Shown here: positions 12,239-47,941 of the stretch, in pieces
How positions within the stretch are numbered: position 1 is the first letter of the stretch
Layout: each line of letters opens with the position of its first letter
NCBI RefSeq assembly: GCF_027497215.1
Contig: NZ_CP114904.1
Location: 3,928,001 to 3,992,000 of the forward strand
Direction of reading: 5' to 3'
DNA from: Micromonospora sp. WMMD812
GTDB lineage: Bacteria > Actinomycetota > Actinomycetes > Mycobacteriales > Micromonosporaceae
DNA: 64,000 nt
The notes under the pieces: model-generated
Databases searched by the model: none
What the model was told of the DNA's origin: nothing
Seen by the model: the letters and a program-made list of their open reading frames with translations, nothing else
Made by a program: the position numbers and the translations under genes

Positions 12239-12241
12239 GCC

Positions 12242-13703: not shown

Positions 13704-13886
13704 CCTCACCCCTCCCGTCACCGAATTCGGAGCAACCGCCGCCCGGCCGCAGGATCTTTCGCCGACCGGCGTCGGCCGCGTGGATCGTACGGCGATGCAG
13801 CGCTTGCCACAGCTTGCAGTTACTTGAGGTTACGGGCGACTGTCCGTGATGCCCGTACGGCGCGCCGATCCCGTGCGTGGGACGGT

Positions 13887-14537
13887 TCACCTCGCCGCGG
13901 CACGTACCCGGTGCCAGCGGGCCAACAGTCCGCCCTCGGCGGCGACCTCCTCGCTGGTCATCGCGTATCCGATGTGGTCCCGCCACGCACCGTCGATGTG
14001 CATGTAGCGCACGTGGTACGACTCCTCGCGGAACCCGAGCTTCTCCACCACCCGGCGGGACGGCCGGTTCTCCGGCCGGATGTTGACCTCCACCCGGTGC
14101 AGCCCGCCCGGGCCGAAGGCGTGGTCCACGGCGAGCGCCAGCGCGGTCGGGATCACGCCGCGCCCGGCCACCCGGTGGTCCACCCAGTAACCCACGTATC
14201 CGGAGCAGAACGCCCGCCGGACGATGCTGCCGACGTTGAGGTGCCCGACCACGCGCTCCTGCCCGTTCTCGCGCAGGCAGACCGCGAACGGCATCCCCTC
14301 GCCGGTACGCGCCGAGCGGCGCTGGTCCCGGTGCACCCAGCGGAACGCGGCCGGGGAGTTCAGCTCGTCCCAGTCGCCGGGCAGCGACGCCTCCCACGGG
14401 GCCAGCCAGCTCTGGTTCGCCCGCCGCACCTCCGACCAGGCGGCCGCGTCCGAACGCCGGTACGGCCGCAGCACCACCGGACCGTCCACGAGGACGGCGG
14501 GCCAGCCGGGCGGTCGTCCGGTTCCGAAGAGGCTCAC
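13887..14537 (-). CDS. RimJ/RimL-type GNAT N-acetyltransferase
   Basis: The 216-residue acetyltransferase belongs to the group that includes ribosomal-protein alanine acetyltransferases. It opens VLRPYRRSDAAAW. Motif A is seen in YWVDHRVAGRGVIPTALAL, and VEVNIRPENRPSRRVVEKLGF is the conserved C-terminal signature (Asn/Ser after the arginine, then the lysine-leucine-glycine-phenylalanine turn). It lies between glp and glpR, the usual position of a rimJ-like gene in actinobacterial galU-glp clusters. The start is a GTG at 14537 after a 129-base gap from glp. Confidence 0.88.
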   Translation of the reverse strand: MSLFGTGRPPGWPAVLVDGPVVLRPYRRSDAAAWSEVRRANQSWLAPWEASLPGDWDELNSPAAFRWVHRDQRRSARTGEGMPFAVCLRENGQERVVGHLNVGSIVRRAFCSGYVGYWVDHRVAGRGVIPTALALAVDHAFGPGGLHRVEVNIRPENRPSRRVVEKLGFREESYHVRYMHIDGAWRDHIGYAMTSEEVAAEGGLLARWHRVRAAAR

Positions 14538-20419: not shown

Positions 20420-20767
20420 GTGCCCACGTACCAGTACGCCTGCACCGCGTGCGGCCACCAGCTCGAGGCGGTGCAGTCCTTCTCCGACGCGCCGCTGACC
20501 GAGTGCCCGGCGTGTGAGGGGCGGCTGCGCAAGGTCTTCAACTCGGTCGGCATCGTGTTCAAGGGCTCCGGCTTCTACCGCACCGACTCCCGGTCCTCCG
20601 GCGGTGGCGACACCGCGTCGAACGGTGGCGCCGCCAAGCCCGCGAAGTCCGAGTCGTCGTCCGGCTCGACCACGTCGACCACCACGTCCACGTCGTCGTC
20701 GAGCGGTTCGTCCAGCGGCGGGACGACCAAGGCCCCGGCCGCCAGCGGCTCCAGCTCCGCGTCCTGA
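20420..20767 (+). CDS. FmdB family zinc-ribbon protein
   Basis: The 115-residue product starts VPTYQYACTACGHQLE, the classical FmdB N-terminus, with CxxC (CTAC) and a second CxxC (CPAC) forming a zinc ribbon. FRKVF-like LRKVFNSVGIVFKGSGFY follows, then a long Ser/Thr/Gly tail (SSSGSTTSTTT). FmdB-type proteins are putative regulators, but their target is not defined. GGAGGAGAAC directly before the GTG is a very strong ribosome binding site. It is 62 bases from the cyclo-ligase gene, the usual neighbour in actinobacteria. Confidence 0.92.
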   Translation: MPTYQYACTACGHQLEAVQSFSDAPLTECPACEGRLRKVFNSVGIVFKGSGFYRTDSRSSGGGDTASNGGAAKPAKSESSSGSTTSTTTSTSSSSGSSSGGTTKAPAASGSSSAS

Positions 20768-34480: not shown

Positions 34481-35607
34481 CCCGCTGGTTGACCGAGCCG
34501 GTGCCCCGCGGCCGGGTGGCCGCCTTCCGCACCCTGATCTACCTGTTCGTCGCGGCCGACCTGGTGGTCTTCACCCCCTGGGTACGCACCCGGGTGAGCG
34601 TGCCCGGCGAGCTCTACCAGCCGCTGCTGGTCGGGCGGCTGCTGCCGCTGCCGACGCCGACCCCGGCGCTGGTGGCGGTGATCTTCTGGGCGCTGCTGGT
34701 GCTCTCCCTGCTCGCGGCCACCGGGCGGGCGCCCCGACTGCTCGGCTGGGCGGTCTGCGCGCTGTACCTCGAGTGGATGATCATCGCGATGAGCTACGGC
34801 AAGGTGGACCACGACCGGGTCGGCCTGCTCGTCGCGCTGGCCGTACTGCCCACCGCCGGGCGGGCGCGGCACGGCGACCCGACCCGTACGGAGGCGGGCG
34901 GCTGGGCGCTGCGGGTCACCCAGATCGCGGTGATCTGCACATACTTCCTGGCCGCCTGGGCGAAGTTGCGGTTCGGCGGCCTCGACTGGCTGACCGGGTC
35001 GGTGCTGGCCCGGGCAATCATCCGGCGCGGCACCGAGCTGGCCGACCTGATCGCCCAGGTGCCGTACCTGTTGATCGTCGCCCAGTTCGGCATCGTCGCC
35101 TTCGAGCTGGCCAGCCCGCTGGTGTTCCTGCTGCCCGAGCGGTGGCGGCTGGCCATGGTGGGCTTCTTCTACTCCTTCCACGTGGTCACCGTCGCGACCA
35201 TCACCATCTCGTTCGCCCCGCACCTGGCGGCGATGGCGAGCTTCCTGCCCCTGGAACGGATCCGCCCGGTCGAGTGGCTGCGCCGGCGCCGTGGCGCCCT
35301 CCCCGGCGGGCCGGCTCAGCGACCGGCTCGCTCCGCGTCAGCGGCCGCCCTCGGCCAACTCGGCGAGCATCCCCTCGCAGCTGCGGACGACCACCTGCGC
35401 GCCGCGCCGCTGGGCCAACCGGAGCAGGGGGTCCTCGGCGCGGTCCCGCCAGCGCCACTGCGCCTCGGCGGCGACCTCCCAGAGCCGCTGCACGCCGGCG
35501 TCGTGCTCGATCCCGAGCCGGGTGGCCAGGCCGACCCCGTCGCCGCCGACCAGGCGCCGCGCCTCCGCCGCGAGTTCGGCGTCGAACCCGAGCCGGGTGT
35601 CCCGTAG
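34477..35607 (+). CDS. HTTM/VKGC-like integral membrane protein
   Basis: The protein has about seven helices in its first 270 residues, including FRTLIYLFVAADLVVF, LLVLSLLAATG and the hallmark VICTYFLAAWAKLRFGG (HTTM/gamma-carboxylase-like YFLAxxAKL). The family contains vitamin-K-dependent gamma-glutamyl carboxylase and bacterial relatives of unknown activity. The frame has no stop where the homology ends (about 35320), but continues to 35607, so the last 90-odd residues lie antisense over the end of the iniC-like gene. That tail (LGQLGEHPLAAADD...) has the composition of a shadow frame. Either the gene truly overlaps by 270 bases or its stop was lost. Confidence 0.7.
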   Translation: MTRWLTEPVPRGRVAAFRTLIYLFVAADLVVFTPWVRTRVSVPGELYQPLLVGRLLPLPTPTPALVAVIFWALLVLSLLAATGRAPRLLGWAVCALYLEWMIIAMSYGKVDHDRVGLLVALAVLPTAGRARHGDPTRTEAGGWALRVTQIAVICTYFLAAWAKLRFGGLDWLTGSVLARAIIRRGTELADLIAQVPYLLIVAQFGIVAFELASPLVFLLPERWRLAMVGFFYSFHVVTVATITISFAPHLAAMASFLPLERIRPVEWLRRRRGALPGGPAQRPARSASAAALGQLGEHPLAAADDHLRAAPLGQPEQGVLGAVPPAPLRLGGDLPEPLHAGVVLDPEPGGQADPVAADQAPRLRREFGVEPEPGVP

Positions 35608-36807
35608 CGCCGCCAGCAGGCGAAGCTCCTGGAACTCGTGGGCGCCGGCGAGGATCTGCTCGACCGTGCCGAGCAGCTCCGCGGTGCCCGGCGCGGGCTC
35701 GGCGCGCAGTAGTTCCTCCACCGCGGCGAGGGCCGAGCGCGACTTGAGCGTGTCCCGCCGGTCGACGAAGAAGCGGCTCACCGACTCGCGCAGCTCGGCC
35801 AGGCCGCTGCGGCGGATCAACTCGGCCGAGAGGGTCGCCCGGCTGTCGCTGCCGGTGCGGACCAGCGTGGTGGCGAGCCGCACCCCGAAAAGGCTGAGCC
35901 GGTCCAGCAGGCCGGCGCGTACCTCGGCGTCCACCGGCACCGGCAGCTCGCCGCGGAGGAACCGGTCGGCGGAGAGCAGGTACGCGTCCAGCTCCGGGCG
36001 GGGGACCGCGGCCAGTTGCGCGACGGCGGCGAAGTCGGACTCGCTGAGCACCCGGCCGGCCAGGCCGATCAGCCCGCTGCACGCCACCACGCCGACGCAG
36101 AGCGCGTTCGCCCGCGGATCGCGGAACTGCCGGCGGGCGAGCTGGCGGGCGGTGAGCAGCGCGTCGATCTTCCCGCCGCCGATCTCGTCCGCGCGGGACC
36201 GCACCATGATCACATTGACCGGGGCGGCCTGCCCGACCGCGCTCTCCCGGCCGGCCTCCAGCATCCGTAGGTCGGTGCCGCGCCCGTCCCGGGTGAGGTA
36301 GAGCACCGCGTCGGCCTCCCGCAGCACCCGGTCCATCACCGGCGACCGGTCCTGCTCGCCGGGACCGCCGACCGCCGGCGTGTCGACCAGGGTCACCTGG
36401 CGCAGGGCCCGGGTGGGCCAGCGCACCACGATGTCGCGCAGCTCGCCGGCCCGCCAGCCGACCAGGTCCACCCGCATCCCGGTCGCCGACCGGACCATCG
36501 CCAGCTCCTGCGGCGGGTGGCTGGACGAGTAACCGGTCGCCCGCGGCTGCGGGCCGTCCTCGTACCAGGTGAAGGCGCCGCTGCCGTCCGCACCGGCGAC
36601 CGGGGCGACCTCCTCACCCATCAGCGCGTTCAGCAGGGTCGACTTGCCGGCGCGCCACGGGCCGGCGATCGCCACCCGGAGCGGCTGTTCCAGTCGCGCC
36701 AGCTGGCCCCGCAGGTGCCCGGTGGCCCGCGGGTCGTCCCGGTAGAGCTGGAGTGCCTGGTGCAGCAGCCCCCACACCGCCTCGTCGAGGCGCAGGCCGA
36801 CGGTCAC
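35338..36807 (-). CDS. iniC: IniC-like dynamin-family GTPase
   Basis: The 489-residue protein starts at GTG 36807, overlapping the stop of the gene before it (GTGA). The GTPase domain shows the P-loop IAGPWRAGKSTLLNAL (about residues 47-62) and the G3 segment VTLVDTPAVGG. Long helices follow that would form the dynamin stalk (ELIRRSGLAELRESVSRFFVDRRD, VEELLRAEPAPGTAELLGTVEQI). It lacks a membrane helix. In mycobacteria IniC is one of two dynamin-like proteins of the cell-wall-stress operon iniBAC; gene order and type are the same here. It would act with the IniA-like protein in membrane remodelling or repair. Confidence 0.78.
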   Translation of the reverse strand: MTVGLRLDEAVWGLLHQALQLYRDDPRATGHLRGQLARLEQPLRVAIAGPWRAGKSTLLNALMGEEVAPVAGADGSGAFTWYEDGPQPRATGYSSSHPPQELAMVRSATGMRVDLVGWRAGELRDIVVRWPTRALRQVTLVDTPAVGGPGEQDRSPVMDRVLREADAVLYLTRDGRGTDLRMLEAGRESAVGQAAPVNVIMVRSRADEIGGGKIDALLTARQLARRQFRDPRANALCVGVVACSGLIGLAGRVLSESDFAAVAQLAAVPRPELDAYLLSADRFLRGELPVPVDAEVRAGLLDRLSLFGVRLATTLVRTGSDSRATLSAELIRRSGLAELRESVSRFFVDRRDTLKSRSALAAVEELLRAEPAPGTAELLGTVEQILAGAHEFQELRLLAALRDTRLGFDAELAAEARRLVGGDGVGLATRLGIEHDAGVQRLWEVAAEAQWRWRDRAEDPLLRLAQRRGAQVVVRSCEGMLAELAEGGR

Positions 36808-38660
36808 GCGCGGGGCTCCAGCGGTGTCGGCGCGGGCCGGGCGCCGGTCAACTGCTGGGCCTGCTCGTAGAGCGCGGCCAACCGCGTCATCTTCACCTTG
36901 ATCTCCCGCTGCCGCTGGTCGCGGACCGCCGCGTCGGTGTCGGCCGCCTGCTTGGCCGTCCGCAGCGACTGGACGATGGCCTCCTGCAACTCGTCGGTCA
37001 GCGCGGTGAAGTGGTCCCGCAGCATCCGCTGCACCTGGCGGGCCGCGTCCCGGCAGTCCTTCGTCATCCGGACGAAGAAGTCGTCCACGTGCCGCTGGAT
37101 GGCCGTCTTCACGGTCGCCTGCCGCCGGCGGAGCAGCTGCTTGCTCTCGTCCCGGATGCTCTTGCCGCCGAACAGCGCGCCCGCGCCGATCGACACCGGG
37201 TTGATCATCGGCATGCCGGCCAGCGTCATCGCCAGGCCGAACATCAGGAGGCCACCGTAGGAGCCCTTCATCCCCGTGATCACCTTCTGGGTGGCGGTGA
37301 ACCGGTCGATGCTCGGCCGCTCGAGCTCCGGCAGCCGGTAAGCGAGATCGTCGGGAACGGTCATGGACCAGGGCGGCAGCACGTCGTAGCCGTACCGGGC
37401 GAAGTTGCCGGCGACCCGGCGTGCGGCGTGATCGCAGCGCTGCGCCAGCCACTCGTGGTTGGCCTCCGCCGCCTCGATCAGGCTGCGGGTCAACCAGTCC
37501 TGGAAGGTGTCCCAGGCGACCAGCGGATCGGCCGTCTCGAACGCGTCGTCGACCGCCCGCAGGATCTGCCGGGTCCGGTCGCGCAGGTCGTACTCGATGT
37601 CGGACAGCAGGTCGGCCATCTCGTCGTTGAGGGTGTTCTGCCAGCGTGTGGAGCACCGTCGCAGCTCGTCCACCTCGCGCTGGGCCGCGTGCAGCCGGGA
37701 CATCGGGCCGGACTGCTCCTCGGCCCGCTGGCTCTCCAGCTCGGCGCGCAGCGGCGCGGCCAACTGCTCCACCACCGTCCGGGCGGTCAGCCCCACCGAG
37801 GCCCGGGCCAGCACGTCGGCCTTGCCGGCGAGGTCGCGCTGGAGCCGGGCGATCAGCGCCGGGAAGCCCGACTCGGCGTTGAGCCCACGGTCGTCGGCGG
37901 CGGCCGCGCGCAGCCGCAGCGACGCCGAGACCGGGATCAGCGCCGCCGGCACACCGGCCTCGGCCAGGTGCCGGCGATTGCGCTCGGCGACCACGCGCCA
38001 GTCCGGCACCAGGTCGATCTTGGTCTGCACCACGACGACGTTCGGGTGTGACCGGGTGACGTGCAGCAGCATGTTCAGCTCGGCCACCGACAGTTCCCGG
38101 GTCGAGTCGGAGACCAGCAGCACGGCGTCCGCGCGGTTCAGCCCGGCGACCGGGACACCGCCGCCCAGCGTGCGCACCTCGTCACTGCCCGGCGTGTCCA
38201 CGAACACCAGTCCGGCGGCGAGCAGCGCGCGCGGGAGTCCGATCTCGACGTACGCCGGGCCACCACCCGGCCGGCGGCCGAGCGTGCCGGCGACGCCGGC
38301 CGCGATCCGGTCCAGCGGCACCGGGGTCCGTTCGGCCGTCACCGGGAGGGCCGTGCCCGCGGACCGGCCGGGGGCGGCCGGCGGCGTCTGGACCACCGCC
38401 ACGGCCGCCGCCTCGGCGTGCCGCACGACGGTCGGCAGCACGGTGGTGCGGCCGTCCCCGACCGGGCAGACCGGCGCGTTGACGATCCCGTTCACCAACT
38501 GGCTCTTGCCCTGGTGCGGCTCGCCGATCACGAGGACGCGCAGCGTCGGATCGAGCAGTTGGGCACGTCGCTGCCGGACGGCCTGGAGCAGGTCGCCGCG
38601 CCCGTGTTCACGGCACGTACGGGCGATCTCGTCGAGAACGTCCAGCCAGATCCCCGCCAT
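36804..38660 (-). CDS. iniA: IniA-like dynamin-family GTPase
   Basis: The 618-residue dynamin-like protein has the P-loop VIGEPHQGKSQLVNGI (about residues 44-59), G2 GRTTVLPT, G3 FVDTPGSDE and G4 VVQTKIDLVPD. A long helical region follows (AQREVDELRRCSTRWQNTLNDEMADLLSDIEYDLRDRT). A hydrophobic paddle, GGLLMFGLAMTLAGMPMINP plus VSIGAGALFGG, could insert into the membrane. This is the layout of mycobacterial IniA, a bacterial dynamin linked to isoniazid tolerance and membrane fission. It overlaps the iniC-like gene by four bases. The start is ATG 38660, or GTG 38663. A strong hairpin separates it from iniB. Confidence 0.82.
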   Translation of the reverse strand: MAGIWLDVLDEIARTCREHGRGDLLQAVRQRRAQLLDPTLRVLVIGEPHQGKSQLVNGIVNAPVCPVGDGRTTVLPTVVRHAEAAAVAVVQTPPAAPGRSAGTALPVTAERTPVPLDRIAAGVAGTLGRRPGGGPAYVEIGLPRALLAAGLVFVDTPGSDEVRTLGGGVPVAGLNRADAVLLVSDSTRELSVAELNMLLHVTRSHPNVVVVQTKIDLVPDWRVVAERNRRHLAEAGVPAALIPVSASLRLRAAAADDRGLNAESGFPALIARLQRDLAGKADVLARASVGLTARTVVEQLAAPLRAELESQRAEEQSGPMSRLHAAQREVDELRRCSTRWQNTLNDEMADLLSDIEYDLRDRTRQILRAVDDAFETADPLVAWDTFQDWLTRSLIEAAEANHEWLAQRCDHAARRVAGNFARYGYDVLPPWSMTVPDDLAYRLPELERPSIDRFTATQKVITGMKGSYGGLLMFGLAMTLAGMPMINPVSIGAGALFGGKSIRDESKQLLRRRQATVKTAIQRHVDDFFVRMTKDCRDAARQVQRMLRDHFTALTDELQEAIVQSLRTAKQAADTDAAVRDQRQREIKVKMTRLAALYEQAQQLTGARPAPTPLEPRA

Positions 38661-38725
38661 CACCGCACCAAGTGTGCTGATTTCAGCGCAATTATCAAGA
38701 GGCAGGAATCCCGGAGACGGGGAAG

Positions 38726-38755
38726 GGCCGGGTCACCGCTATCGGTGACCCGGCC
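38726..38755 (-). terminator. Perfect hairpin between iniB- and iniA-like genes
   Basis: GGCCGGGTCACCG pairs with CGGTGACCCGGCC over 13 bp around a CTAT loop (minus strand ATAG). It begins 24 bases after the iniB-like stop and ends 66 bases before the iniA-like start. It probably ends part of the transcripts, so that IniB is made in excess over the two GTPases. Confidence 0.7.
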
Positions 38756-38778
38756 TCCCCGCTCCGACCGGGCGTCGG

Positions 38779-39672
38779 TCAGAGCAGACCGTCGGTGATG
38801 CCCAGCAGGCCGCCGCCGTGAGACGCGGACGCGTCCCCGTGGACCCCGGCGTCGCCGGTCACCCCGCCGGTGACGCCACCGGTCACGCTGCCCACCGTGC
38901 CGGTGACGCCGGAGAGGACGCCATCCACCTGGTGCGTCACGCCGCCCACCGTGGACGGCACGTCGACCGGGCCGACCGAGCCCGCGTCGCCGCCGTTCAG
39001 GCCGAGCCCGCCCAGGGTGTCGTTCACACCGAGCGAGTCGACGAGGCCGCCGACCTGGCCGGTGGTGCCGGAGAGGGTGCCGCCGAGCAGCCCGTCCGGC
39101 GTGCCGAGCAGGCCGTGGTCGGTGGCGTCGAGAACGGTGTCCGGGGCGCCGACGGCACCGGTCACGTCTCCGACCACCGGGTCGGCGACCGTGTCGACCA
39201 CGCCCACCACGTCGGCGTCGAGGGTGTGCGCGACGTCGTTCACCCCGGTCAGGTCGGTGGCGATCCCGCCCGGCCCGACGCCCACGCCGATCCCCGGCAG
39301 CACCGTCGCGCCGACGGCGACCGCCGTGGGGTCGACGGCGATGGCGCCGAGCACGCCGGCCTTGACGTCCACACCGGAGTAGGTGCTGCTGACCGTGATC
39401 TGCTGCGCCACGCTCTGCAACTGGCCGACCACGTCGGTCGCGTCGTTCACCAGCGGGTCGGCGCCGAGCTGACCCGTCAGCGGGGCGACCGGCGCCAGGC
39501 CGCCGACCGGGGCGTAGTCGACCACCAGCGGCACCACGTCCTGCACGTCGGCGGCGGTGATGTCGGTGAGCCCCGCGGCCTGCAGCGCGCCCTCCGGGTC
39601 GAGGTCGAAGGCCGACCGGGCGTCGGCGTCGGTGAGCAGGTTGAGCACGAAGTCGTGCAGGGTCTGGTCCAT
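38779..39672 (-). CDS. iniB: IniB N-terminal domain protein
   Basis: The first 50 residues (TLHDFVLNLLTDADARSAFDLDPEGALQAAGL then DITAADVQDVVPLV) match the IniB N-terminal domain. The remaining 240 residues are a low-complexity Gly/Val/Asp/Thr region with GGVTGGVTGD-like repeats and no aromatic residues apart from one or two Tyr. There is no signal peptide or helix anchor. In mycobacteria IniB is the first product of the iniBAC operon induced by cell wall inhibitors; its function is not known. It is divergent from the Hsp70-like gene across a 302-base region, and followed by the two dynamin genes. Confidence 0.85.
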   Translation of the reverse strand: MDQTLHDFVLNLLTDADARSAFDLDPEGALQAAGLTDITAADVQDVVPLVVDYAPVGGLAPVAPLTGQLGADPLVNDATDVVGQLQSVAQQITVSSTYSGVDVKAGVLGAIAVDPTAVAVGATVLPGIGVGVGPGGIATDLTGVNDVAHTLDADVVGVVDTVADPVVGDVTGAVGAPDTVLDATDHGLLGTPDGLLGGTLSGTTGQVGGLVDSLGVNDTLGGLGLNGGDAGSVGPVDVPSTVGGVTHQVDGVLSGVTGTVGSVTGGVTGGVTGDAGVHGDASASHGGGLLGITDGLL

Positions 39673-39974
39673 GTGCCGGATCTCCTCGAATGTGGGCGTC
39701 GTCGACCGCCGCTCGTCGACATCGACGCTATGACCCCCGAGCGGCGCCGGTCATCGGGGAACTGCCCGCAACCCACTCCGCTCGGTTAGGGCGTCAACCC
39801 CCTCCGCCGTTAGGGGGACTGGGGGAACCGGGCCGGCCAGATTTAGGGTCTCGATGCCGGAGAGTTCTCTGGTACGAACGTAGGAGCCCACGGGGATTCA
39901 CCGGGGGTGGGCCGTCCGCACGATGGGATACCCGTGGCCCGCGGCCGGCCGACTCGCGGTCGAGGAAGAAGCGA
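39673..39974. promoter_or_regulatory. Divergent promoter region iniB / hsp70-like with TTAGGG repeats
   Basis: This gene-free stretch must hold both divergent promoters. It contains three direct copies of TTAGGG at 39786-39791, 39810-39815 and 39843-39848 (steps of 24 and 33 bases); the first two extend to GTTAGGG, and the second lies in a small hairpin CCCCCT/AGGGGG. Direct rather than inverted repeats would suit the LuxR-type regulator encoded nearby. A strong ribosome binding site (GAGGAAGAAG) precedes the Hsp70-like ATG, and AGGAGAT lies before the iniB start. Confidence 0.5.
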
Positions 39975-41246
39975 ATGCCGTACGTCCTGGGGATAGACAT
40001 CGGAAACACCACCACCGCCGCCACCATGGCCCGGCGGCGGGGGGCGAGCTGGGCACGACCCGAGGTCGTCGCGCTCGACGCCGGTTCGGCGACCCTGCCG
40101 TCGGTGCTGCACCTGGGCACGGACGGCACCCTCGTCGTCGGCGAGTCCGGCGGCGACGACGGCAACCGGACCGCCCGCGGCTTCGTCCGCCGGGTCGGTG
40201 ACGACGTGCCGCTGCTGCTCGCCGGCGAGGCGTGCCCGCCGCAGATGCTCACCGCCGTCCTGGCCACCTGGGTGGTCGAGCGGGTTCACGACCGGGAGGG
40301 CGAGCCGGCCGACGCGGTCGTGGTCAGCCACCCCGCGGGCTGGGGACGGCACCGGCGTGACCTGCTGCACGCCGCCCTGTGGGAGCAGGGGCTGGCTCAC
40401 GTGACGCTGCTGCCGCGTACCGTGACCGTCGCCGAGAGTCACGCGGCCCGGGGCTTCGCCGGCGGCACCGCCGCCGTCTACGCCCTGGGCGGCAACAGCT
40501 TCGAGGCCGCGCTCGTCCGGTGCAACGAACGCGGCCGCTACGAGACCGTCGGTTTCCCGCAGGGGCTGGACTGGATCGGCGGCGCCGACTTCGACGAGGC
40601 GCTGGCCGAACACGTCCGCACCGTGCTCGCCCGGGAGATCGCCGCCGCCGGCCGGCGGGAGACGTACGCCACCCTGCGCGCCCTCCGGCCCGAATGCGAC
40701 CGGGCCAAGCGCGAACTGACCGTCAGCACCGACACCGACGTGCTGCTGACCCTGCCCACCGGGCCGACCCGGGTGCCGGTGAGCCGCGTGCAGTTCGAGG
40801 AGATGATCCGGCCGGCCGTGCAGGCCACCGTGGAGCTGCTGGACCGCACCGTCCGCTCCGCCGGGCTGCGGCCCGCGGAACTCGACGCCGTCCTGCTGAC
40901 CGGCGGGTCCACCCGGATCCCGCTGGTCGGCGAACTCCTCACCGCCGCATTCCCGGTGCCGATCGAGGTGGAGCCCGACCCGCAGCTGACCGCCGCCACG
41001 GGCGCGGCGCTGGCCGCCTGCCAGGTGATGTCACCGCGCCCGCGACCGGCCGCACCGGAGCGCGCGCAGCAACCCGCCGCCGGCCCACGACGCGGCGGCG
41101 CGGCGGTACCCGCGCCACGACGACCCGACCACGACCGACCGGTCCACAGTGAACCCCCACCACGCCCACCGGTCCGCATCACCCCGCTGGACCTGCCGAG
41201 GCCGTCCCGCCTGGCGCTGGCCCGAGGGCGGGGACGCGAAGGATGA
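39975..41246 (+). CDS. Hsp70-like ATPase without substrate-binding domain
   Basis: The 423-residue protein has the actin-like ATPase fold of Hsp70. It shows phosphate motif 1 VLGIDIGNTTTAATM (residues 4-18), phosphate motif 2 region AVYALGGNSFEAAL (about 166-179) and adenosine motif LLTGGSTRIPLVGE (about 309-322). In motif 2 the usual DLGGGTFD is ALGGNSFE, so the first Asp is missing. Only a Pro/Arg-rich tail follows; there is no peptide-binding domain. It therefore is not a normal chaperone and may be a sensor or adaptor. It is the first gene of a run with the regulator and kinase genes; its stop overlaps the next ATG (41243-41246). Confidence 0.82.
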   Translation: MPYVLGIDIGNTTTAATMARRRGASWARPEVVALDAGSATLPSVLHLGTDGTLVVGESGGDDGNRTARGFVRRVGDDVPLLLAGEACPPQMLTAVLATWVVERVHDREGEPADAVVVSHPAGWGRHRRDLLHAALWEQGLAHVTLLPRTVTVAESHAARGFAGGTAAVYALGGNSFEAALVRCNERGRYETVGFPQGLDWIGGADFDEALAEHVRTVLAREIAAAGRRETYATLRALRPECDRAKRELTVSTDTDVLLTLPTGPTRVPVSRVQFEEMIRPAVQATVELLDRTVRSAGLRPAELDAVLLTGGSTRIPLVGELLTAAFPVPIEVEPDPQLTAATGAALAACQVMSPRPRPAAPERAQQPAAGPRRGGAAVPAPRRPDHDRPVHSEPPPRPPVRITPLDLPRPSRLALARGRGREG

Positions 41247-43822
41247 CCACCATGATCATGAGCACTGTCGCCGGAAGCCGACTGGTGCTGGACCGCGCGC
41301 CACAGGCCCTGCTCGACGCGGTCGCCACGGACCCCGGGGCACCGCTCGCGCTCGCCGTGACCGGCCCGGGCGGCCACGGGCGCACCGCGTACCTCCAGGA
41401 ACTGGCCCGGATCTACCGGCGGGCCGGCGTCGCCGTGCGGGAGAACCCGCCGGAGTCGCCCGACCAGGTCGACCCGGAGACGGTCCTGCTGGTCGACGAC
41501 GCCCATCTGCTCGACGACGCCCGACTCGAAACCCTGCGCCGCCTCGTCGCCGGGCGGCGGCACCGCGTGGCCGTCGGCTACCGGCCGTGGCCGCGACCCG
41601 CCGGGCTGGTCGAGCTGGCCGACACCCTCCGGCGGGACGGGCAACTGGTCCTGCTCACCCCGTTCGCCCGGGAGCAGACGGCCGCCCACCTCGCCGCCGT
41701 ACCGGAGCTGGGCCGCCGCGCGGAGCTGCTCGACTTCGTGCACGGGCAGACCGCGGGCGTACCTCGCGACGTCGAACGCCTCGCCCGCGGGCTCCGCGGT
41801 GCGGAGCCCCGTCCCGGCGTACCGGCCGAACCGCCCCGGCAGGTCGTCCTCGAGTTCGGGCCGGACCTGGAGGACCTCACCCCCGACGTCCGGCGGCTGC
41901 TGCTCGCCGTCGCCGCCGGCGTACCGCTGCCGATGGAGCTGCTCGGCACGCTGCTCGGCCGCGACCCGGCCGACGTGGACGCGCTCGTCGCGGCGACCCG
42001 GGCGGCCGGCCTGCTCGGCGCGGACGGACGCCTCGCGCCACTGGTCCGCCGGGCCGTGGTCGCGCTCAGCCCGGCCACCGAACGGACCGCCGTGTGGCGC
42101 CGCCTCAGCGAGGTACAACTGGCCCGCGGCGGCCCGGTGCTGCCGCTGGTCCGCGCGCTGCTCACCGCCGGGGTAGCCGGCGACTGCCCGGCGGGGACGC
42201 TCGAGGCCGCCGCCGAGGAGGCGCTCGGCGCCGACCCGGCCCTCGCGGCGGAGCTCTTCGCTGCGGCCGCGGCCGCGGGCCGGCCGGTGGCCGCCCGCCA
42301 GGCGGTCGCCGCGGCACTCGCCGGCGATCTCGACGCCGCCCTCCGGCTCGCCGACCGATTGCTCGCCTCGGCGACGCCGACCGAGCGGGCGGAGGCGGCC
42401 CTGGTCGCCGCGACGGCACTCGCGCACCGCGGCCAGGTCGGCCGCAGCGTGGAGCTGTACCGGTGGTCGGGCGCCGCCCCGGCCACCGCGTTCGCCACCG
42501 TCGGCGCGCTCGCCGGCGGTGACCGGGCCGGCGCGACGGGTGGGCCCCGAGGCGACCGGGGCGGCCCGCCCACCCTGCACGCCAGCGCCGCCCAACTGAT
42601 GGCCGACGGCGTCGCGGAGAGCGTCGACGGGTCACCCACCGCCGCACTGTCCACCCTGGTGCAGGCCACGGCGCTGCTGGAACCGGACGGACGGGCGGTG
42701 CTCCTGCCGGACAGCCCGGCCGCGCTCGCCGCGCTCACCGCCGTGCACTGCGGTGAACTCGACATCGCCGACCGGGTGCTCGACCGCGCCCTCGCCAGCG
42801 GCATCGGCGGCCCGCTGATGGCCCGCCGGCATCGGCTGCTCCAGGCCTGGATCCTGCTGGTCCGGGGCCACACGGCCGTCGCCGCCGACCGGCTCGCCGC
42901 GGTCACCGCCGTCGGCCGGCCGCTCGAATCGCGGGACCTGCTCTTCGCCACCGCGCTGGAACTGGGAATCGCCCGGCGGAACAGCGACCTCGGCGCGCTC
43001 CAGCGCGGCTGGGGCCACGCGCTGGAAGCCGTGGTCCGCCACCCGGTGGACCTGTTCACCCTGCTGCCCCTCGGCGAGCTGGCCATCGCGGGCGCCCGCC
43101 TCGGCGACCTGGACCGGCTGGCGCCCTACCTGCGCGAGGCCCGGGCCCTGCTGGCCCGTCTCGGCGACCCACCACTGTGGAGCACACCCCTGCACTGGAG
43201 CGGGCTGCACGCGGCGATCCTCACCGAAGCACCCGCCGCCGCCGACGACCACGTAGCCGCGCTGCTCACCGCGGCGCCGCACAGCCGGTACGCCACCGTT
43301 GTCGCCGCGGCCGCCACCAGCTGGGTCGACGTCCTGCGCGGGGTGGTCGACCCGATCCGCGTCGAAGCGGCCGCCCGCGGCCTGCACGACGCCGGGCTCT
43401 GCTGGGACGGCGCCCGGCTCGCCGGGCAGGCCGCGATCCGCACCGCCGACCGGCGGGCCATGACCACCCTGCTGGACTGCGCCCGGATGCTCCAGGGCCG
43501 CCCCGCCGGGGCGAAGGGCGGTCAGCGTCCCACCGCCGGCGCCGACGGTCAGGTCGCGGACGCCCTCACCGCACCGGCCGCGCACCGGCTCAGCGACCGG
43601 GAACGTGAGGTCGCCGAACTGGTGCTGGCCGGGCTGACCTACCGGGAGATCGGCGACCGGCTCTTCATCTCGGCCAAGACCGTGGAGCACCACGTGGCAC
43701 GCATGCGCTCCCGCCTCAACTGCGCCAACCGCGCCGAACTGCTGGCCCTGCTGCGCACCATCGTGGCCGACCGGTCCGACACCGGGGCCGGCCAGCCGTG
43801 GCCCGAACGGCCGACCCGGTGA
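41243..43822 (+). CDS. ATPase-LuxR transcriptional regulator (IniR-like)
   Basis: The 859-residue protein is a large LuxR-type regulator: an N-terminal STAND-type ATPase, a helical repeat middle (TPR-like, LASATPTERAEAALVAATALAHRGQVG), and a C-terminal LuxR helix-turn-helix (LSDREREVAELVLAGLTYREIGDRLFISAKTVEHHVARM, about 783-821). The Walker A segment reads VTGPGGHGRTAYL with Arg in place of the usual Lys; Walker B is VLLVDDAHLLDD. In M. tuberculosis the regulator IniR, of the same general build, sits beside iniBAC and activates it in response to free trehalose. The divergent position here suggests the same role, but the signal is unknown. Its stop overlaps the kinase gene start (GTGA). Confidence 0.8.
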   Translation: MTTMIMSTVAGSRLVLDRAPQALLDAVATDPGAPLALAVTGPGGHGRTAYLQELARIYRRAGVAVRENPPESPDQVDPETVLLVDDAHLLDDARLETLRRLVAGRRHRVAVGYRPWPRPAGLVELADTLRRDGQLVLLTPFAREQTAAHLAAVPELGRRAELLDFVHGQTAGVPRDVERLARGLRGAEPRPGVPAEPPRQVVLEFGPDLEDLTPDVRRLLLAVAAGVPLPMELLGTLLGRDPADVDALVAATRAAGLLGADGRLAPLVRRAVVALSPATERTAVWRRLSEVQLARGGPVLPLVRALLTAGVAGDCPAGTLEAAAEEALGADPALAAELFAAAAAAGRPVAARQAVAAALAGDLDAALRLADRLLASATPTERAEAALVAATALAHRGQVGRSVELYRWSGAAPATAFATVGALAGGDRAGATGGPRGDRGGPPTLHASAAQLMADGVAESVDGSPTAALSTLVQATALLEPDGRAVLLPDSPAALAALTAVHCGELDIADRVLDRALASGIGGPLMARRHRLLQAWILLVRGHTAVAADRLAAVTAVGRPLESRDLLFATALELGIARRNSDLGALQRGWGHALEAVVRHPVDLFTLLPLGELAIAGARLGDLDRLAPYLREARALLARLGDPPLWSTPLHWSGLHAAILTEAPAAADDHVAALLTAAPHSRYATVVAAAATSWVDVLRGVVDPIRVEAAARGLHDAGLCWDGARLAGQAAIRTADRRAMTTLLDCARMLQGRPAGAKGGQRPTAGADGQVADALTAPAAHRLSDREREVAELVLAGLTYREIGDRLFISAKTVEHHVARMRSRLNCANRAELLALLRTIVADRSDTGAGQPWPERPTR

Positions 43823-45840
43823 GCGGGCACGGGGCGGCGTCGACCGGTCAGCACCTCCGGCGACAGTTCGTCGCCACGGCGGTCGTCCTGGTCGCGCTCT
43901 GGTCGTACGCCGCCTACCTGACCGGCCGCGACGCGGCCGACCTGCTCCGCATCCGGGCCCTGGCGGAGACCCTCGGCCAACCCACCGACCGGCTGATCCT
44001 CGACCTCCAGACCGAGCGGCGCCTCACCGCCGGCACCATCGCCAACACCCCCCGGGCGCGGGCCGCGCTCGCCGGCGCCCGCGACGGCACCGACCGGACC
44101 GTGACCACCCTGCGCGACACCGCCGCCGGCACCGACCTGCGGCTGCTCACCGCCGGCGCCGTCCGTGACCGCGCCGACCAGCTGCTCCGCCACCTCGACG
44201 GGCTCCCCGGGCTACGAGCCGAGGCGGACGCCGGCCGCGCCGAGGCCGTCGCCGGCTACGACCGTCTGATCGACACCGCCTTCGCGGTGTACGGACCCGA
44301 GTGGGGCGCCCGGGAGACCAACCTGGCGGCCGAGACCCGGGCCGTCGTCGCGCTCGCCCGCTCCCGGGAACTGCTCGCCCGGGAGGACACCCTGCTCACC
44401 ACCGCGCTGACCAACGGCCGAATCACCGCCGACGACCGGCGCCGGCTCACCGAACTGATCAGCAACCAGCGGTACGCCGGCGCCGAGGCGGTCACCGGGC
44501 TGCCCGCCGCCGACCAGGCGGCCTACCGGACCCTGCTGGAGGGACCCCGGTTCGCCGAGCTGCTGTCCCTCGAGGATCAGCTGCTGCGCCCCGGCGACGA
44601 CCGGCCGGCGTTCGGCGTGGACAGCTGGCGCCCGGCGGCCGACTCCGCCCTGGCCGGCCTGCACGAGCTGGTCCGATCCACGGCCCGCCGCAGCGTCGAA
44701 CGCGCCACACCCGGCGCCGCCCTCGTGGTCACCCGCACCGGCGCGGTCCTGGGGCTCGGCCTCATCGCGGTGCTCGCCCTGCTGGTCGCCGGCACCGGCA
44801 CCGTCCGCCGGCTCTCCGCCGGAACGCGCGCGCCGAGCCAGAATCCACCGATCGCCGACGGCACGACCGCCTCGGGTCCCCTCCCGGCGGCCACCGCTGC
44901 TCCACCACAGCTGCCGGTCCACACCGAGCCAGCCGCCCCACCGGCGGGCACGGGCCACGTACCGGCCGGGAACCAGCCCGGCCCCGGACCGGCCACCCGA
45001 GATCTCTTCCTCCGCGTCACGCAACGCAACCAGGCGCTGCTACGCGAGCAGTTCACGCTGCTCGACGCGATGGAGCGACGGGAGCACAACGCGGAGGACA
45101 CGGCCGACCTGTTCCAGCTCGATCATCTCGCCACCCGCCTGCGACGTAACGTCGAGAAGCTGGTCACGCTCGCCGGCGCCCGGCCCGCCCGGCGCTGGCG
45201 CCGGCCCGTACCCCTGCTCGACGTGGTGCGGGGCGCCGTCGCCGAGGTCGCCGACTACCAGCGGGTGCTGGTCGCACCGCAGTGGCCCTGGTCACTCGCC
45301 GGCCCCGCGGTCACCGACGTCACCCACCTGCTCGCCGAACTCGTCGAGAACGCGCTGGCGTACTCGCCGGCCAGCACCACCGTGCGGCTGGGCGGCGAGG
45401 AGAGGCCCACCGGCTGCGCCGTCGAGGTCACCGACGACGGGCCCGGCCTCGACCCCGCCACCCTCGCCGAAGCGAACCGCCTCCTGGCCGATCCGCCACC
45501 GACGGGTCCACCGAACGGCCGCACCGGGCTGTACGCTGCTGCCCTGCTCGCCGCTCGCTGCGGCGCCCGGGTCTCGTTGCACCCCGGGCCGCGCGGCGGA
45601 ACGGCGGCGGTCGTGCTGCTCCCTCCCACCCTGGTCACCCAGACCGGGCCCGACGGCGCAGCGACCGGGCCGGGTGGCCCCCGGCCCGGCCCGGCGGTGG
45701 GAACGACGTCCGGATCCGGCGTCGCCGGCGACCTGCCGGTGCGGACCCGGCAACCCGGGTCGGTGCGGCCCGGGCCAGGCACGGCGGGGTCCGACACGGT
45801 CGAGATACCGGTCTCGAGAGCAGCGAGAGGACACAGATGA
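43819..45840 (+). CDS. cvnA: Nitrate/nitrite-sensing-type histidine kinase (conservon CvnA)
   Basis: The 673-residue membrane kinase has a first helix (FVATAVVLVALWSYAAYLTG), an extracytoplasmic NIT-type domain (LILDLQTERRLTAGTIAN), a second helix (VLGLGLIAVLALLVAGTG, about 310-328) and a Pro-rich linker. The kinase core follows: LDHLATRLRRNVEKL (H-like box, about 432-446), HLLAELVENALAYSP (N box), VTDDGPGLD (G1) and GRTGLYAAALLAARCG (G2). It matches CvnA of actinobacterial conservons, whose sister genes cvnB and cvnC follow. Start GTG 43819 overlaps the regulator gene stop. A second start at 43798 is possible. Confidence 0.88.
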   Translation: MSGHGAASTGQHLRRQFVATAVVLVALWSYAAYLTGRDAADLLRIRALAETLGQPTDRLILDLQTERRLTAGTIANTPRARAALAGARDGTDRTVTTLRDTAAGTDLRLLTAGAVRDRADQLLRHLDGLPGLRAEADAGRAEAVAGYDRLIDTAFAVYGPEWGARETNLAAETRAVVALARSRELLAREDTLLTTALTNGRITADDRRRLTELISNQRYAGAEAVTGLPAADQAAYRTLLEGPRFAELLSLEDQLLRPGDDRPAFGVDSWRPAADSALAGLHELVRSTARRSVERATPGAALVVTRTGAVLGLGLIAVLALLVAGTGTVRRLSAGTRAPSQNPPIADGTTASGPLPAATAAPPQLPVHTEPAAPPAGTGHVPAGNQPGPGPATRDLFLRVTQRNQALLREQFTLLDAMERREHNAEDTADLFQLDHLATRLRRNVEKLVTLAGARPARRWRRPVPLLDVVRGAVAEVADYQRVLVAPQWPWSLAGPAVTDVTHLLAELVENALAYSPASTTVRLGGEERPTGCAVEVTDDGPGLDPATLAEANRLLADPPPTGPPNGRTGLYAAALLAARCGARVSLHPGPRGGTAAVVLLPPTLVTQTGPDGAATGPGGPRPGPAVGTTSGSGVAGDLPVRTRQPGSVRPGPGTAGSDTVEIPVSRAARGHR

Positions 45841-46295
45841 CGCATTCAGTGGTCACCGCCGACGGCCTGACCGACGGCCTGACCGATGCCCTGAACGACC
45901 TGGTCGACCGGGTGCACGGGGCCGAGTTCGCGGTGGTGCTGTCCCCCGACGGGCTGCTGCTCGGCGCAAGCCGCAACGTCGACGACGACCTGGCCGAACA
46001 GCTTTCCAGCCTGGTCGCCGGCCTGGAGGCGCTCGGCATGGCCGCCACCCGGGTGTGCGTCGGCGGAGGGCTGCGCCAGGTCGTCGTGCAGATGGCGCGC
46101 GCCTTCCTCTTCGTCGCCACGACCCGCAACGGGGCGATCCTCACCGTGCGGATCGGCGGCGACGCCGAGGTCGGCGACATGGCGTACGAGGTGGCGCTCT
46201 TCGTCGGCCAGGCCGAGCGGCACCTGCCGGTGTACCTCGAACCGGCCCCGACTGCGACGGGCGGGGAGATCGGTGCAGCCCACCGGCGGAGCTGA
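45837..46295 (+). CDS. cvnB: Roadblock/LC7 domain protein (conservon CvnB)
   Basis: The 152-residue protein has a single roadblock/LC7 fold: ALNDLVDRVHGAEFAVVLSPDGLLLGASRNVDDD, AEQLSSLVAGLEALGMAAT and VRIGGDAEVGDMAYEVALFVGQ. In conservons CvnB acts as a regulator of the small GTPase CvnD. Here it is translated with the kinase gene (ATGA overlap, 45837-45840) and overlaps the DUF742 gene by 23 bases. No cvnD gene follows, so its GTPase partner is either encoded elsewhere or replaced by another nucleotide-binding protein of this operon. Confidence 0.88.
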   Translation: MTHSVVTADGLTDGLTDALNDLVDRVHGAEFAVVLSPDGLLLGASRNVDDDLAEQLSSLVAGLEALGMAATRVCVGGGLRQVVVQMARAFLFVATTRNGAILTVRIGGDAEVGDMAYEVALFVGQAERHLPVYLEPAPTATGGEIGAAHRRS

Positions 46296-46653
46296 CGAAG
46301 CGTGGTACGACGACGACGCCGGGCCGGTGGTCCGGCCGTACGCCGTGACCGGTGGGCGCAGCGCCCCCGACCGTGGCCGGTTCGACCTGATCACTCTGGT
46401 CGTGACCCGAGGCACGGTGGCATCGACCGCGCAGCTCTTCCCGGAGCAGGCCGCGATCGTCGAGATGTGCCGGCAGCCGCTCTCGGTGGCCGAGGTCGGC
46501 GCCGAACTGGACCTGCCGGTGGGCACCGTCCGGGTGCTCCTCGGCGACCTGCTCGACGCCGGGCTGATCGAGACGCACGAACCGCCGACACTCTCCGAGC
46601 TGCCGTCCGAGGAACTGCTCAGGGAACTGCTCGCCGGACTGCGCGCGCTGTGA
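46273..46653 (+). CDS. cvnC: DUF742 protein (conservon CvnC)
   Basis: The 126-residue protein is a DUF742 winged-helix-like domain. It has VVRPYAVTGGRSAP near the N-terminus, FDLITLVVTRG, and CRQPLSVAEVGAELDLPVGTVRVLLGDLLDAGLI as the helix-turn-helix part. This family is the third member of conservons and accompanies CvnB. GGGGAGATCG precedes the GTG at 46273. The gene is followed 57 bases later by an exported protein gene, in the place where a cvnD GTPase gene would be expected. Confidence 0.88.
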   Translation: MQPTGGADEAWYDDDAGPVVRPYAVTGGRSAPDRGRFDLITLVVTRGTVASTAQLFPEQAAIVEMCRQPLSVAEVGAELDLPVGTVRVLLGDLLDAGLIETHEPPTLSELPSEELLRELLAGLRAL

Positions 46654-46709
46654 GCGGGCGACCGACCGCGGTGGCGCGTCGGTGGAAGATCTGAGAGGGG
46701 AACCAGGTA

Positions 46710-47438
46710 GTGCCGGCATCACCGCCGCAACCACGTAGGACCGTGGCGATCATCCTGCTCGACCGATTCGTGGCCCTCGTCGGGGCCGCCCGGCGTGCGC
46801 TCACCGGACAGGGTGGCGGGTCGGCGGTCGTCCGGGTCGCCGCCCTCGCGTCGCTCGCGGTGCTGGTCGCCACGGCGGTCCCCGTCGTCCTGGTGCTGCG
46901 GACGCCGGAGCGCCTGGCCCCGGTGGCGCTGGACCCGCCGCCCGAGCCCGCGATGCCGGAGACCACCGAGCACGGGACACCCGGCGCGGAAGCCAGACCG
47001 GCCACGTCCACCCGGCCGACGCCCAGCCAGTCCACCAGTGCCGCCGCCCCGACCACCGCACCGCCGCCCACCACCGACGGGCCGGCGCGCACCACCGCCG
47101 CCGCCCCGGTGCCGCTGCGCGCCGACTTCGCCATCGCGGACAGCGCACTGCTCAGCTACGGCGCGGCCGTCACCATCGGCAACCCCGGCCCCGCCGGGGC
47201 GCCGGACTGGAAACTGGTGATCACGCTGCCCCGGGAGTCACTCGACGTCACCGGGGTGACCGGGGCCCGCGCCAGCCGCGACGGCGCGACCTGGACCTTC
47301 GTGCCGGACGGGCCGGCCGGCCAGGTCCCCGGCCGGGGCTCGGTCCGGGTCACCTTCCGGGTGGCGGGCGCGCCCATCAGCGCCACCCCGACCGCGTGCA
47401 CGATCGACGGCGCCGCCTGCGCCGGCCTGCCCGACTGA
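46710..47438 (+). CDS. Membrane-anchored protein with CBM2-like domain
   Basis: The 242-residue protein has a short cytoplasmic part with an N-terminal hydrophobic IILLDRFVALVGAARR, a membrane helix (VAALASLAVLVATAVPVVLVL, about 42-62) and a Thr/Pro/Ala linker. The C-terminal beta sandwich resembles family 2 carbohydrate-binding modules (YGAAVTIGNPG, DWKLVITLPRE, GSVRVTFRVAGAP) with two cysteines near the end. The start is GTG 46710 after GAGAGGGGAACC. As last gene of the conservon-type run it could be the surface sensor or target of the system, perhaps contacting the cell wall. Binding to cellulose is not implied. Confidence 0.75.
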   Translation: MPASPPQPRRTVAIILLDRFVALVGAARRALTGQGGGSAVVRVAALASLAVLVATAVPVVLVLRTPERLAPVALDPPPEPAMPETTEHGTPGAEARPATSTRPTPSQSTSAAAPTTAPPPTTDGPARTTAAAPVPLRADFAIADSALLSYGAAVTIGNPGPAGAPDWKLVITLPRESLDVTGVTGARASRDGATWTFVPDGPAGQVPGRGSVRVTFRVAGAPISATPTACTIDGAACAGLPD

Positions 47439-47469: not shown

Positions 47470-47850
47470 TCAGTCGCGCCTGGCCGAGGGCACCGCGCAG
47501 GCCGCGGTGCCGCCGGGCAGGCGGTGCCGGTTGCGGGCCACCCAGCGGTACGCCGGCCAGGCCGCCGCGCGCACCGGCGGGAACCGCAGCCCGGCGCCCG
47601 CTACCCGCCAGACCGGCCCGCTGGCGGCCAGCAGCCGGGCGATGGCGTCCGGCCCGGCGGCCCGTACGCCGTCGGCGCCCACCCACTGCACGGCCTGCTC
47701 GCACTCGGCCTCGGTCAGCCCCAGGGCGGCGAGGTCGGCGAACTGCCACGGCACCACCCGCGCGGCGGTGGGGATGTGCCGCTCGATGAACTCCGCGCAG
47801 CGGGTGCAGAACGCGCAGTCCCCGTCGTAGACGAACGTCGACCTGTCCAT
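47470..47850 (-). CDS. DCC-family (DUF393) thiol oxidoreductase-like protein
   Basis: The 126-residue product has the family signature TFVYDGDCAFCTRCAEFIE at the N-terminus, with the CxxC-type cysteines after DGDC (DCxxCxxC here), then PWQFADLAALGLT and LRFPPVRAAAWPAYRWVARNRH. The family is thought to have a thioredoxin-like fold. GGAGGATGGGG precedes ATG 47850. It is divergent from the intein-bearing radical SAM gene, with only 91 bases between the starts. Confidence 0.88.
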   Translation of the reverse strand: MDRSTFVYDGDCAFCTRCAEFIERHIPTAARVVPWQFADLAALGLTEAECEQAVQWVGADGVRAAGPDAIARLLAASGPVWRVAGAGLRFPPVRAAAWPAYRWVARNRHRLPGGTAACAVPSARRD

Positions 47851-47941
47851 GCCCCCATCCTCCACCCACCGAGCTGCGACCGGGTGTCGAGGTGGCGCGC
47901 GTCGCTTGCATCCGGCTCGTACGTGTGTTCGAATGATGGCC

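Follow-up and report, generated by a model that had tools for sequence, protein, structure and literature searches.

An iniBAC-type dynamin locus with an Hsp70-like partner and an IniR-like regulator in Micromonospora sp. WMMD812

The question raised by positions 35338 to 47438 of the stretch analyzed here, a window of 64,000 nucleotides from Micromonospora sp. WMMD812 (contig NZ_CP114904.1, positions 3,928,001 to 3,992,000), is what joins genes resembling the mycobacterial iniB, iniA, and iniC to an opposing chain of six genes for an Hsp70-like protein, an IniR-like regulator, a NIT-domain kinase, a roadblock protein, a DUF742 protein, and a CBM2 protein. The locus is read here, with somewhat better than even confidence, as an envelope-stress dynamin regulon run by the IniR-like regulator, in which the Hsp70-like protein would be the transducer and the last four genes of the chain a lineage-specific sensor arm. 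All nine genes were found where the original prediction had placed them, three on the minus strand and six on the plus strand in divergent arrangement, in a genome that forms a single 7.13 Mb contig (Table 1; start codons are inferred). The claim that four of the five junctions in the plus-strand chain overlap was likewise borne out: hsp and iniR share an ATGA at 41243, iniR and the kinase gene overlap by 25 bases, the kinase and roadblock genes share an ATGA at 45837, and the roadblock and DUF742 genes overlap by 23 bases, leaving a gap of 56 bases before the CBM2 gene. On the other strand, iniA and iniC share a GTGA (iniA stop, iniC start at 36807). Because the linkage recurs in sampled relatives, as described below, this arrangement is beyond chance.

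The dynamin side is of the iniBAC type. The IniB-like protein has a conserved N-terminal stretch of 50 residues followed by a Gly/Val-rich remainder, its domain clears the cut-off, and the gene order is B-A-C. It is the only IniB-domain match in the genome, so that no iniB* is present. The IniA-like protein aligns with the solved mycobacterial IniA (6j72) over residues 4-608 with an E value of 2.2e-85. Mycobacterial IniA is described in extracts of PMC6715688 as a membrane-fission dynamin that cuts membrane tubes in vitro, with R488 and K489 named as lipid-loop residues; in the alignment to 6j72, read by eye, K489 is kept and R488 is replaced by Gly.

The gene described in the original prediction as an ATPase-LuxR regulator linked to the dynamins turned out to encode a relative of IniR. 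It adjoins iniBAC and matches the NCBIfam IniR profile NF038181 over positions 3-826 of 827 (E 1.6e-147); since its score of 493 bits lies under the curated cut-off of 750 bits, which was exceeded in one of the 61 genomes of one survey, it is classed as an IniR relative that falls outside the equivalog. According to extracts of PMC5760070, IniR is the activator of iniBAC in mycobacteria, as judged from mutants, overexpression, and chromatin immunoprecipitation (ChIP), binds upstream of iniBAC, and is reported to regulate iniBAC only; a dnaK-like gene adjoins iniR in M. smegmatis. The window protein is predicted (pLDDT 87) to fold into an ATPase, a long arm of helical repeats, and a LuxR end. 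The best Foldseek match of this model was the STAND-TPR protein 6mfv, at a low whole-chain TM-score, and domain III of MalT (1hz4) ranked 37th with a TMt of 0.59. At the position of the Walker A lysine, Lys occurs in 88 and Arg in 11 of 99 aligned IniR sequences (10 of 109 rows, gapped in the motif, were left out), and the window protein has Arg. The smallest starred set that holds the window protein in the IniR tree has five rows, Micromonospora musae among them.

Conservation of the neighborhood was assessed in two samples. For the first, possession of the IniB domain was the sole criterion: a sample of 394 genomes from the class gave 40 matches, 37 genomes exceeded the cut-off (the window's included), and stretches of 20 kb or less were fetched from all 36 others, with three weaker matches excluded. 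An Hsp70-like gene was present in the fetched stretch of all 36 genomes, in one of them (L055) detected by profile only; the profile had been built from some of these loci together with the window's genus. An IniR frame, in some cases cut at an edge, was present in 35 of 36 and both dynamins in 35 of 36, the exceptions (L061 and L067, respectively) stopping at a contig edge; iniA is split into two pieces in L174. The second sample was chosen by IniR and consisted of the best 80 of at least 413 relatives, and it is therefore tilted to close relatives. Together with further loci it amounted to 118, of which 109 distinct IniR loci remained after removal of six without an IniR frame over 600 bits and three duplicates. 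The stretch contained an Hsp70-like gene in 104 of the 109. Four of the others (L006, L080, L090, and L091) are cut by contig ends, and in L049 IniR was the sole match among the query genes. In the window genome the Hsp70-like profile matches at four places in 7.13 Mb. Among 37 genomes of the genus, a strong IniR and a strong IniA occur together in 17, IniR alone in none, and neither in strong form in 19, of which two (G013 and G015) have a diverged version of both; the remaining genome (G014) has IniA with a broken-up IniR at the same place.

The view of the locus as an iniBAC-type dynamin system outside mycobacteria is thus supported by an IniB domain over its cut-off, an IniA resembling mycobacterial IniA, and an adjoining IniR relative, and the Hsp70-like gene proposed as their partner is kept in both samples. 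The expectation of conserved linkage held in part. The core of iniBAC, the Hsp70-like gene, and IniR recurs in the sampled relatives, so that a lack of conserved linkage, which had been named as a point that would speak against the prediction, was not what was found for it; the kinase-roadblock-DUF742-CBM run falls outside this conserved system and accompanies IniR, entire or partial, in 35 of 109 loci, all of them from Micromonosporaceae.

A candidate for the operator of the regulator lies in the divergent iniB-hsp region. In 96 such regions, which include three duplicates and are non-independent because close relatives share them by descent, TTAGGG occurs in 170 copies oriented toward hsp versus 4 reversed, with at least one copy in 92 regions and at least two in 60. 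Its density is 5.5 per kb in the divergent regions versus 0.12 per kb across the fetched loci, and outside Micromonosporaceae it is found, on either strand, in 56 of 59 regions versus 6.5 expected from single-base shuffles. Two mycobacterial-type loci, L050 and L068, have it as well, and in L163-L178 (16 of 16) it lies no more than 400 bases upstream of one of the genes iniB, hsp, and iniR. Where TTAGGG lies upstream of an iniB that is co-directional, its orientation relative to iniB is kept in four of five loci (L056, L057, L065, and L147; L053 is the exception). The window has three copies and a possible variant, CATCGGGG, which recurs in 39 of 59 non-Micromonosporaceae regions versus 1.1 expected (single-base shuffles). 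Nearer to hsp stands the element TCTGGTACGAACGTA, which is perhaps part of the hsp-side promoter; the word GGTACGAA occurs in 35 of 37 Micromonosporaceae regions versus 0.3 expected. TTAGGG is taken here as a candidate IniR box. The MalT box is given in an extract of PMC7567727 as a repeat of GGGGA(T/G)GAGG, and because the MalT operator also consists of such repeats, a MalT-like regulator acting on asymmetric repeats fits. The likeness to MalT and other STAND LuxR activators extends to the predicted ATPase, helical-repeat arm, and LuxR end and to the G-rich core of the repeats, whereas the sequence of the window box differs and MalT domain III is far down the list of fold matches.

Compared with the mycobacterial IniR-iniBAC system (Rv0339c type), the window locus is alike in its B-A-C gene set, its adjoining IniR-family gene, and its IniB N-terminal domain, and TTAGGG lies upstream in mycobacterial-type loci too. 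It is unlike that system in the score of its IniR, in having between iniB and IniR an Hsp70-like gene that encodes a short-tailed nucleotide-binding domain, in its added Cvn and CBM genes, and in lacking iniB*. Several variants of the locus were noted along with these. At the Micromonospora loci L051, L052, and L191, the genes for the Hsp70-like protein, IniR, IniC, and IniA are of a diverged version, and Cvn genes were not found; IniR of L051 and L052 is 31% identical to that of the window, and a membrane helix was scored in the Hsp70-like protein there and not in L191. The mycobacterial-type loci L166, L167, L169, and L170 have a second Hsp70-like gene past iniR, and this gene too is preceded by TTAGGG, on the other strand. 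The window's flanking genes surround the locus in some Micromonospora and not in others (L033, L034, L039, and L042 compared with L037, L038, L040, and L045), a clade dependence hinting at movement or rearrangement of the locus.

Under the proposed mechanism, envelope stress would lead to release or activation of IniR, whose STAND ATPase, helical-repeat arm, and LuxR end would place it on the TTAGGG repeats of the iniB-hsp promoter. Binding would raise IniB together with the dynamin pair IniA-IniC on one side and the regulator's own operon on the other, forming a positive loop, and IniA and IniC may then remodel or repair the membrane. The Hsp70-like domain, made together with IniR from overlapping genes, would be the likeliest transducer, and it could hold or release IniR or the dynamins according to the state of the envelope. 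In many relatives the Hsp70-like protein would itself reach the membrane through a predicted helix followed by a Pro/Thr-rich tail. The window lineage is without these, and there the membrane CBM2 protein, together with the NIT kinase, roadblock, and DUF742 proteins, may supply the sensing of surface ligands. Since the usual conservon G protein is absent at the locus, the output of the roadblock and DUF742 proteins may be redirected to a nearby GTPase (IniA or IniC) or to the Hsp70-like/IniR pair.

The Hsp70-like protein shares with Hsp70/DnaK the nucleotide-binding domain (PF00012) and the adenosine motif. It is unlike them in having no substrate-binding domain (the protein has 423 residues, and its best stretch stops at profile position 377 of 599), in the replacement of the phosphate-2 Asp (YALGGNSFEA), and in its short tail with a PPxRPPVxITPL end; no membrane helix was detected in it by hydropathy. 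Among the 104 Hsp70-like proteins, the window's counted, hydropathy indicates a hydrophobic helix in the tail of 41, often followed by a Pro/Thr-rich stretch, and the 63 helix-less proteins often end in a PPxRPPVxITPL-like sequence. The phosphate-2 Asp is present in 28 and replaced in 13 of the helix-bearing proteins versus 6 and 55 of the helix-less ones, with two unreadable. A rule that a helix-less Hsp70-like protein is always accompanied by a separate membrane protein was considered and rejected, as no gene of that kind consistently followed IniR in the 11 loci inspected, which include Lentzea, Saccharothrix, Umezawaea, and Prauserella.

Hsp70-like genes also occur near dynamins at loci without IniB. 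Twenty such loci were hand-picked among the best-scoring Dynamin_N matches in 197 sampled genomes, excluding IniB-positive genomes and some weaker places, and an Hsp70-like gene was near the dynamin in 10 of them (L226, L227, L232, L233, L234, L237, L240, L241, L242, and L244), although in L240 and L241 it is several kb away. L227 also has an IniR frame, and in L237 the Hsp70-like protein is fused to WD40 repeats (Pfam). In the stretches of the other ten (L225, L228, L229, L230, L231, L235, L236, L238, L239, and L243), of which L229 and L230 are short contigs, no Hsp70-like gene was found. About 0.01 Hsp70-like genes per 20 kb would be expected from the count in the window genome, and other genomes may hold more. 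The association of Hsp70 with dynamins may be broader than the IniR loci, as a hand-picked lead and not a census. Two further adjacencies were observed. Positions 4941-10861 of L192 (Micromonospora G012) hold a dynamin-dynamin-Hsp70 run with an end that appears WD40-like on reading of the sequence; IniR and IniB were not found in this stretch, and a close relative of its Hsp70-like protein occurs in 2 of 197 genomes, L192 itself included. The window genome has a second Hsp70-dynamin adjacency, in which what looks like a canonical dnaK-grpE-dnaJ set and two further dynamin-like GTPases are arranged head to head (L181, G000:C1:4522000-4541900, positions 6528-14213).

These loci bear on an alternative that is compatible with the rest of the mechanism and that we regard as possible without favoring it, namely that the Hsp70-like protein acts as a co-factor of the chaperone type, folding or dismantling the large IniR or dynamin oligomers, as in uncoating, and not as a sensor switch. 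The Hsp70-like genes near IniB-less dynamins are consistent with such a role, as is the gene beside cyanobacterial BDLP1, which in an extract of PMC6104087 encodes a dynamin with a DnaJ-like domain suggested to bind DnaK. The window protein, however, has neither a substrate-binding domain nor an intact phosphate-2 motif, and because relatives have a membrane helix with a long tail (many of the IniR loci) or WD40-type repeats (L192 and L237), anchoring or sensing is favored over folding.

Turning to the sensor arm, the kinase, roadblock, and DUF742 genes are each recognized by their Pfam models and follow the usual CvnA-CvnB-CvnC order of conservons. The five other DUF742 genes of the genome that exceed the cut-off are all followed by a gene with a GGFGxGKTT P-loop, read as CvnD from motif and position only, with a seventh, weak DUF742 match standing outside this count. 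A motif search found no such gene beside the DUF742 gene of the window locus and, within the fetched stretches, none at any of 35 Cvn-bearing IniR loci. The conservon at the locus is therefore incomplete, and a CBM2 protein stands in the place of the CvnD G protein. The conservon accessories CvnE (P450) and CvnF (GAF) accompany kinases without a sensory domain, according to an extract of PMC13343842, whereas the window kinase has a NIT domain and its accessory is the CBM2 protein. The model of this protein has two N-terminal helices (12-32 and 39-63), of which the latter is hydrophobic, then a linker predicted as disordered and, at about 137-235, a CBM2-like domain with a pLDDT of about 90 or more. 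Its Pfam score falls just under the cut-off, the predicted fold matches CBM2 6qfs (Foldseek TMt 0.80, E 4e-8), and conservation of the CBM core residues extends to 18 relatives. RsgI-like anti-sigma factors have a short inner end, a membrane helix, a linker, and an outer CBM, and the layout of the window protein is alike by analogy. The CBM3 domain 4b97 from an RsgI-like protein was a weak Foldseek match, although the window protein has a CBM2 and not a CBM3, and Pfam gave the CBM only and no anti-sigma domain.

At least one of the four arm genes lies beside IniR in each of the 35 loci mentioned above, in a pattern of mosaic loss, with some stretches cut; their assignment to Micromonosporaceae was made from names and genus labels, with a family placement that we take to be correct. 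Across 61 Micromonospora genomes, CBM (at least 140 bits) and iniA (IniA at least 800 bits), with both thresholds set after the lists had been seen, occur together in 25, iniA only in 7, CBM only in 1, and neither in 28 (Fisher p 1.3e-9, not corrected for kinship). The seven IniA-only genomes are the six of a clade that retains the roadblock gene only (L034, L035, L044, L186, L187, and L188) and G014, with its IniA and IniR in pieces.

That the core works as proposed while the kinase-roadblock-DUF742-CBM genes form a separate, degenerating conservon merely sharing the transcript is compatible with the core mechanism, and we consider it rather doubtful. Its attraction is that the arm is limited to Micromonosporaceae among the sampled IniR loci and is lost piecemeal, that no CvnD-type gene was found, and that the core stands without the arm in other sampled families. 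A bystander would not, however, be expected to track iniA as the CBM gene does in the 61 genomes, to overlap its neighbors, to retain Pfam matches in kinase, roadblock, and DUF742 proteins and CBM core residues in 18 relatives, or to leave one piece beside IniR in the roadblock-only clade. A bolder extension, which we put forward as a speculation unlikely to hold in full, is that a truncated Hsp70 with interchangeable ends (a membrane helix and outer tail, WD40, or a short tail) would be a constant partner and switch of paired dynamins across Actinomycetia, with or without IniR, and that the Micromonosporaceae conservon without a G protein of its own would signal through this Hsp70-dynamin module, with the roadblock and DUF742 proteins acting on the dynamin GTPases.

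Several findings weigh against the reading of the locus as an IniR-run regulon with a lineage-specific sensor arm. Besides the sub-cut-off score of the regulator, IniR is not necessarily the sole regulator, because in mycobacteria HpoR acts as a repressor of iniBAC, according to an extract of PMC13413693. When 400 bases upstream of each gene were scanned in 22 further loci outside the divergent set, TTAGGG was found in 9 and not in 13, several of the latter being cut by contig ends, and in L051 and L052 it stands before hsp in the opposite orientation. Across the window genome, the tandem pattern TTAGGG-N10..30-TTAGGG has two occurrences, each of them in the iniB-hsp promoter, but its rarity alone is unremarkable because the reversed control gave three genome-wide matches. 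Among the 109 loci, no family other than Micromonosporaceae was found to have the arm next to IniR, and within Micromonospora there is the roadblock-only clade. In the sole CBM-only genome (G462), a lone CBM2 gene (L185, 9594-10628) is surrounded by counterparts of 11 of the 12 window flanking genes, and the other eight locus genes were not found in the stretch; this is likely a deletion remnant. For the Hsp70-like proteins, membrane topology is read from hydropathy alone, and the coincidence of helix loss with phosphate-2 Asp loss in the raw counts was rejected as evidence of co-evolution: on a quick IniR tree under a simple model, with L055, L108, L129, and L146 left out as doubtful or cut, about six independent pairs gave a median sign-test p of 1. 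In Lentzea, Saccharothrix, and Prauserella, neither Cvn nor CBM genes adjoin IniR where the Hsp70-like protein is helix-less, so that replacement of a lost membrane arm by Cvn and CBM genes is not general.

A role in anti-phage or membrane-damage defense, with a STAND-type sensor, Hsp70, and Leo-like dynamins acting on infected membranes, is quite improbable, since its support from the patchy distribution in the genus (32 of 61 genomes have a strong IniA), the flanking genes that vary among Micromonospora clades, and the PADLOC matches (LeoBC at 34.7 bits over 257-574 of window IniA, LeoA at 29.7 bits over 25 residues of window IniC, and 88 bits in L227) is countered by the weak and partial nature of the window matches, which may reflect general dynamin homology, and by the response of mycobacterial iniBAC to cell-wall drugs under an IniR reported as iniBAC-only in extracts of PMC5760070.

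Table 1. Features of the iniBAC-type locus and its divergent promoter region, in window coordinates.
Feature	Position	Strand	Evidence or remark
iniC-like dynamin GTPase	35338..36807	-	Dynamin_N 31.3 bits, cut-off 27; GTG start at 36807
iniA-like dynamin GTPase	36804..38663	-	Dynamin_N 44.8 bits, cut-off 27; 290 bits to 6j72
iniB-like protein	38779..39672	-	NF038175 IniB_NTERM 70.1 bits, cut-off 40
Divergent iniB-hsp region	39673..39974	.	Conserved blocks in Micromonospora
CATCGGGG, possible variant box	39752..39759	+	Word recurs in 39/59 non-Micromonosporaceae regions
Candidate IniR box 1, TTAGGG	39786..39791	+	
Candidate IniR box 2, TTAGGG	39810..39815	+	
Candidate IniR box 3, TTAGGG	39843..39848	+	
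TCTGGTACGAACGTA, conserved element	39868..39882	+	GGTACGAA in 35/37 Micromonosporaceae regions
Hsp70-like protein, nucleotide-binding domain and short tail PPPRPPVRITPLDLPRPSR	39975..41246	+	HSP70 106 bits
IniR-like signal-transduction ATPase, helical-repeat middle, LuxR helix-turn-helix	41243..43822	+	NF038181 493 bits
CvnA-like kinase, NIT domain and HATPase	43798..45840	+	NIT 124 bits, HATPase_c 38 bits
CvnB-like roadblock protein	45837..46295	+	Robl_LC7 55 bits
CvnC-like DUF742 protein	46273..46653	+	PF05331 120 bits
CBM2 protein	46710..47438	+	Pfam CBM_2 23.2 bits, cut-off 24; CBM2-like predicted fold

Scans for signals around these genes gave no sigma-70 promoter-like site and one terminator-like site versus 1.2 expected, both being uninformative at this G+C content. 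Rfam at the gathering threshold identified one tRNA in the window and no match inside the locus; ARAGORN called a second tRNA-Ala(CGC) at window positions 20603-20680 (minus strand), which is under the Rfam gathering score and possibly a false call. Downstream of the locus, a radical-SAM gene (window 47849-50008, plus strand) has an intein-like insert with a LAGLIDADG match and a Hint match under the cut-off. Because the neighboring frames fall into two groups, scoring 720-730 bits in L037, L040, and L074 versus 1218-1344 bits in L038, L045, and L075, the insert may differ in presence between species.

In mycobacteria, according to extracts of PMC5760070, the iniBAC promoter shows the strongest induction of all under ethambutol and isoniazid. 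The literature, as far as the extracts go, treats iniBAC as mycobacterial, with trehalose as the cue. Among open-licence papers, none joining iniBAC and Micromonospora was found, none joining iniBAC, promoter, and TTAGGG was found, and of those listed on Hsp70, IniB, dynamin, and actinobacteria none is, by title, on an IniB-Hsp70-dynamin link. To our knowledge, the soil actinobacteria concerned lack mycolic acids, and that they have this core, along with the promoter repeat, in common with mycobacteria suggests that the iniBAC-type system is older and more general than the mycobacteria. These organisms may serve as harmless laboratory hosts for its study. The locus also points to an Hsp70-like component that has been overlooked and offers a directly testable candidate for the IniR operator, and a conservon without a G protein beside dynamin GTPases would offer a concrete way into the targets of roadblock and DUF742 proteins.

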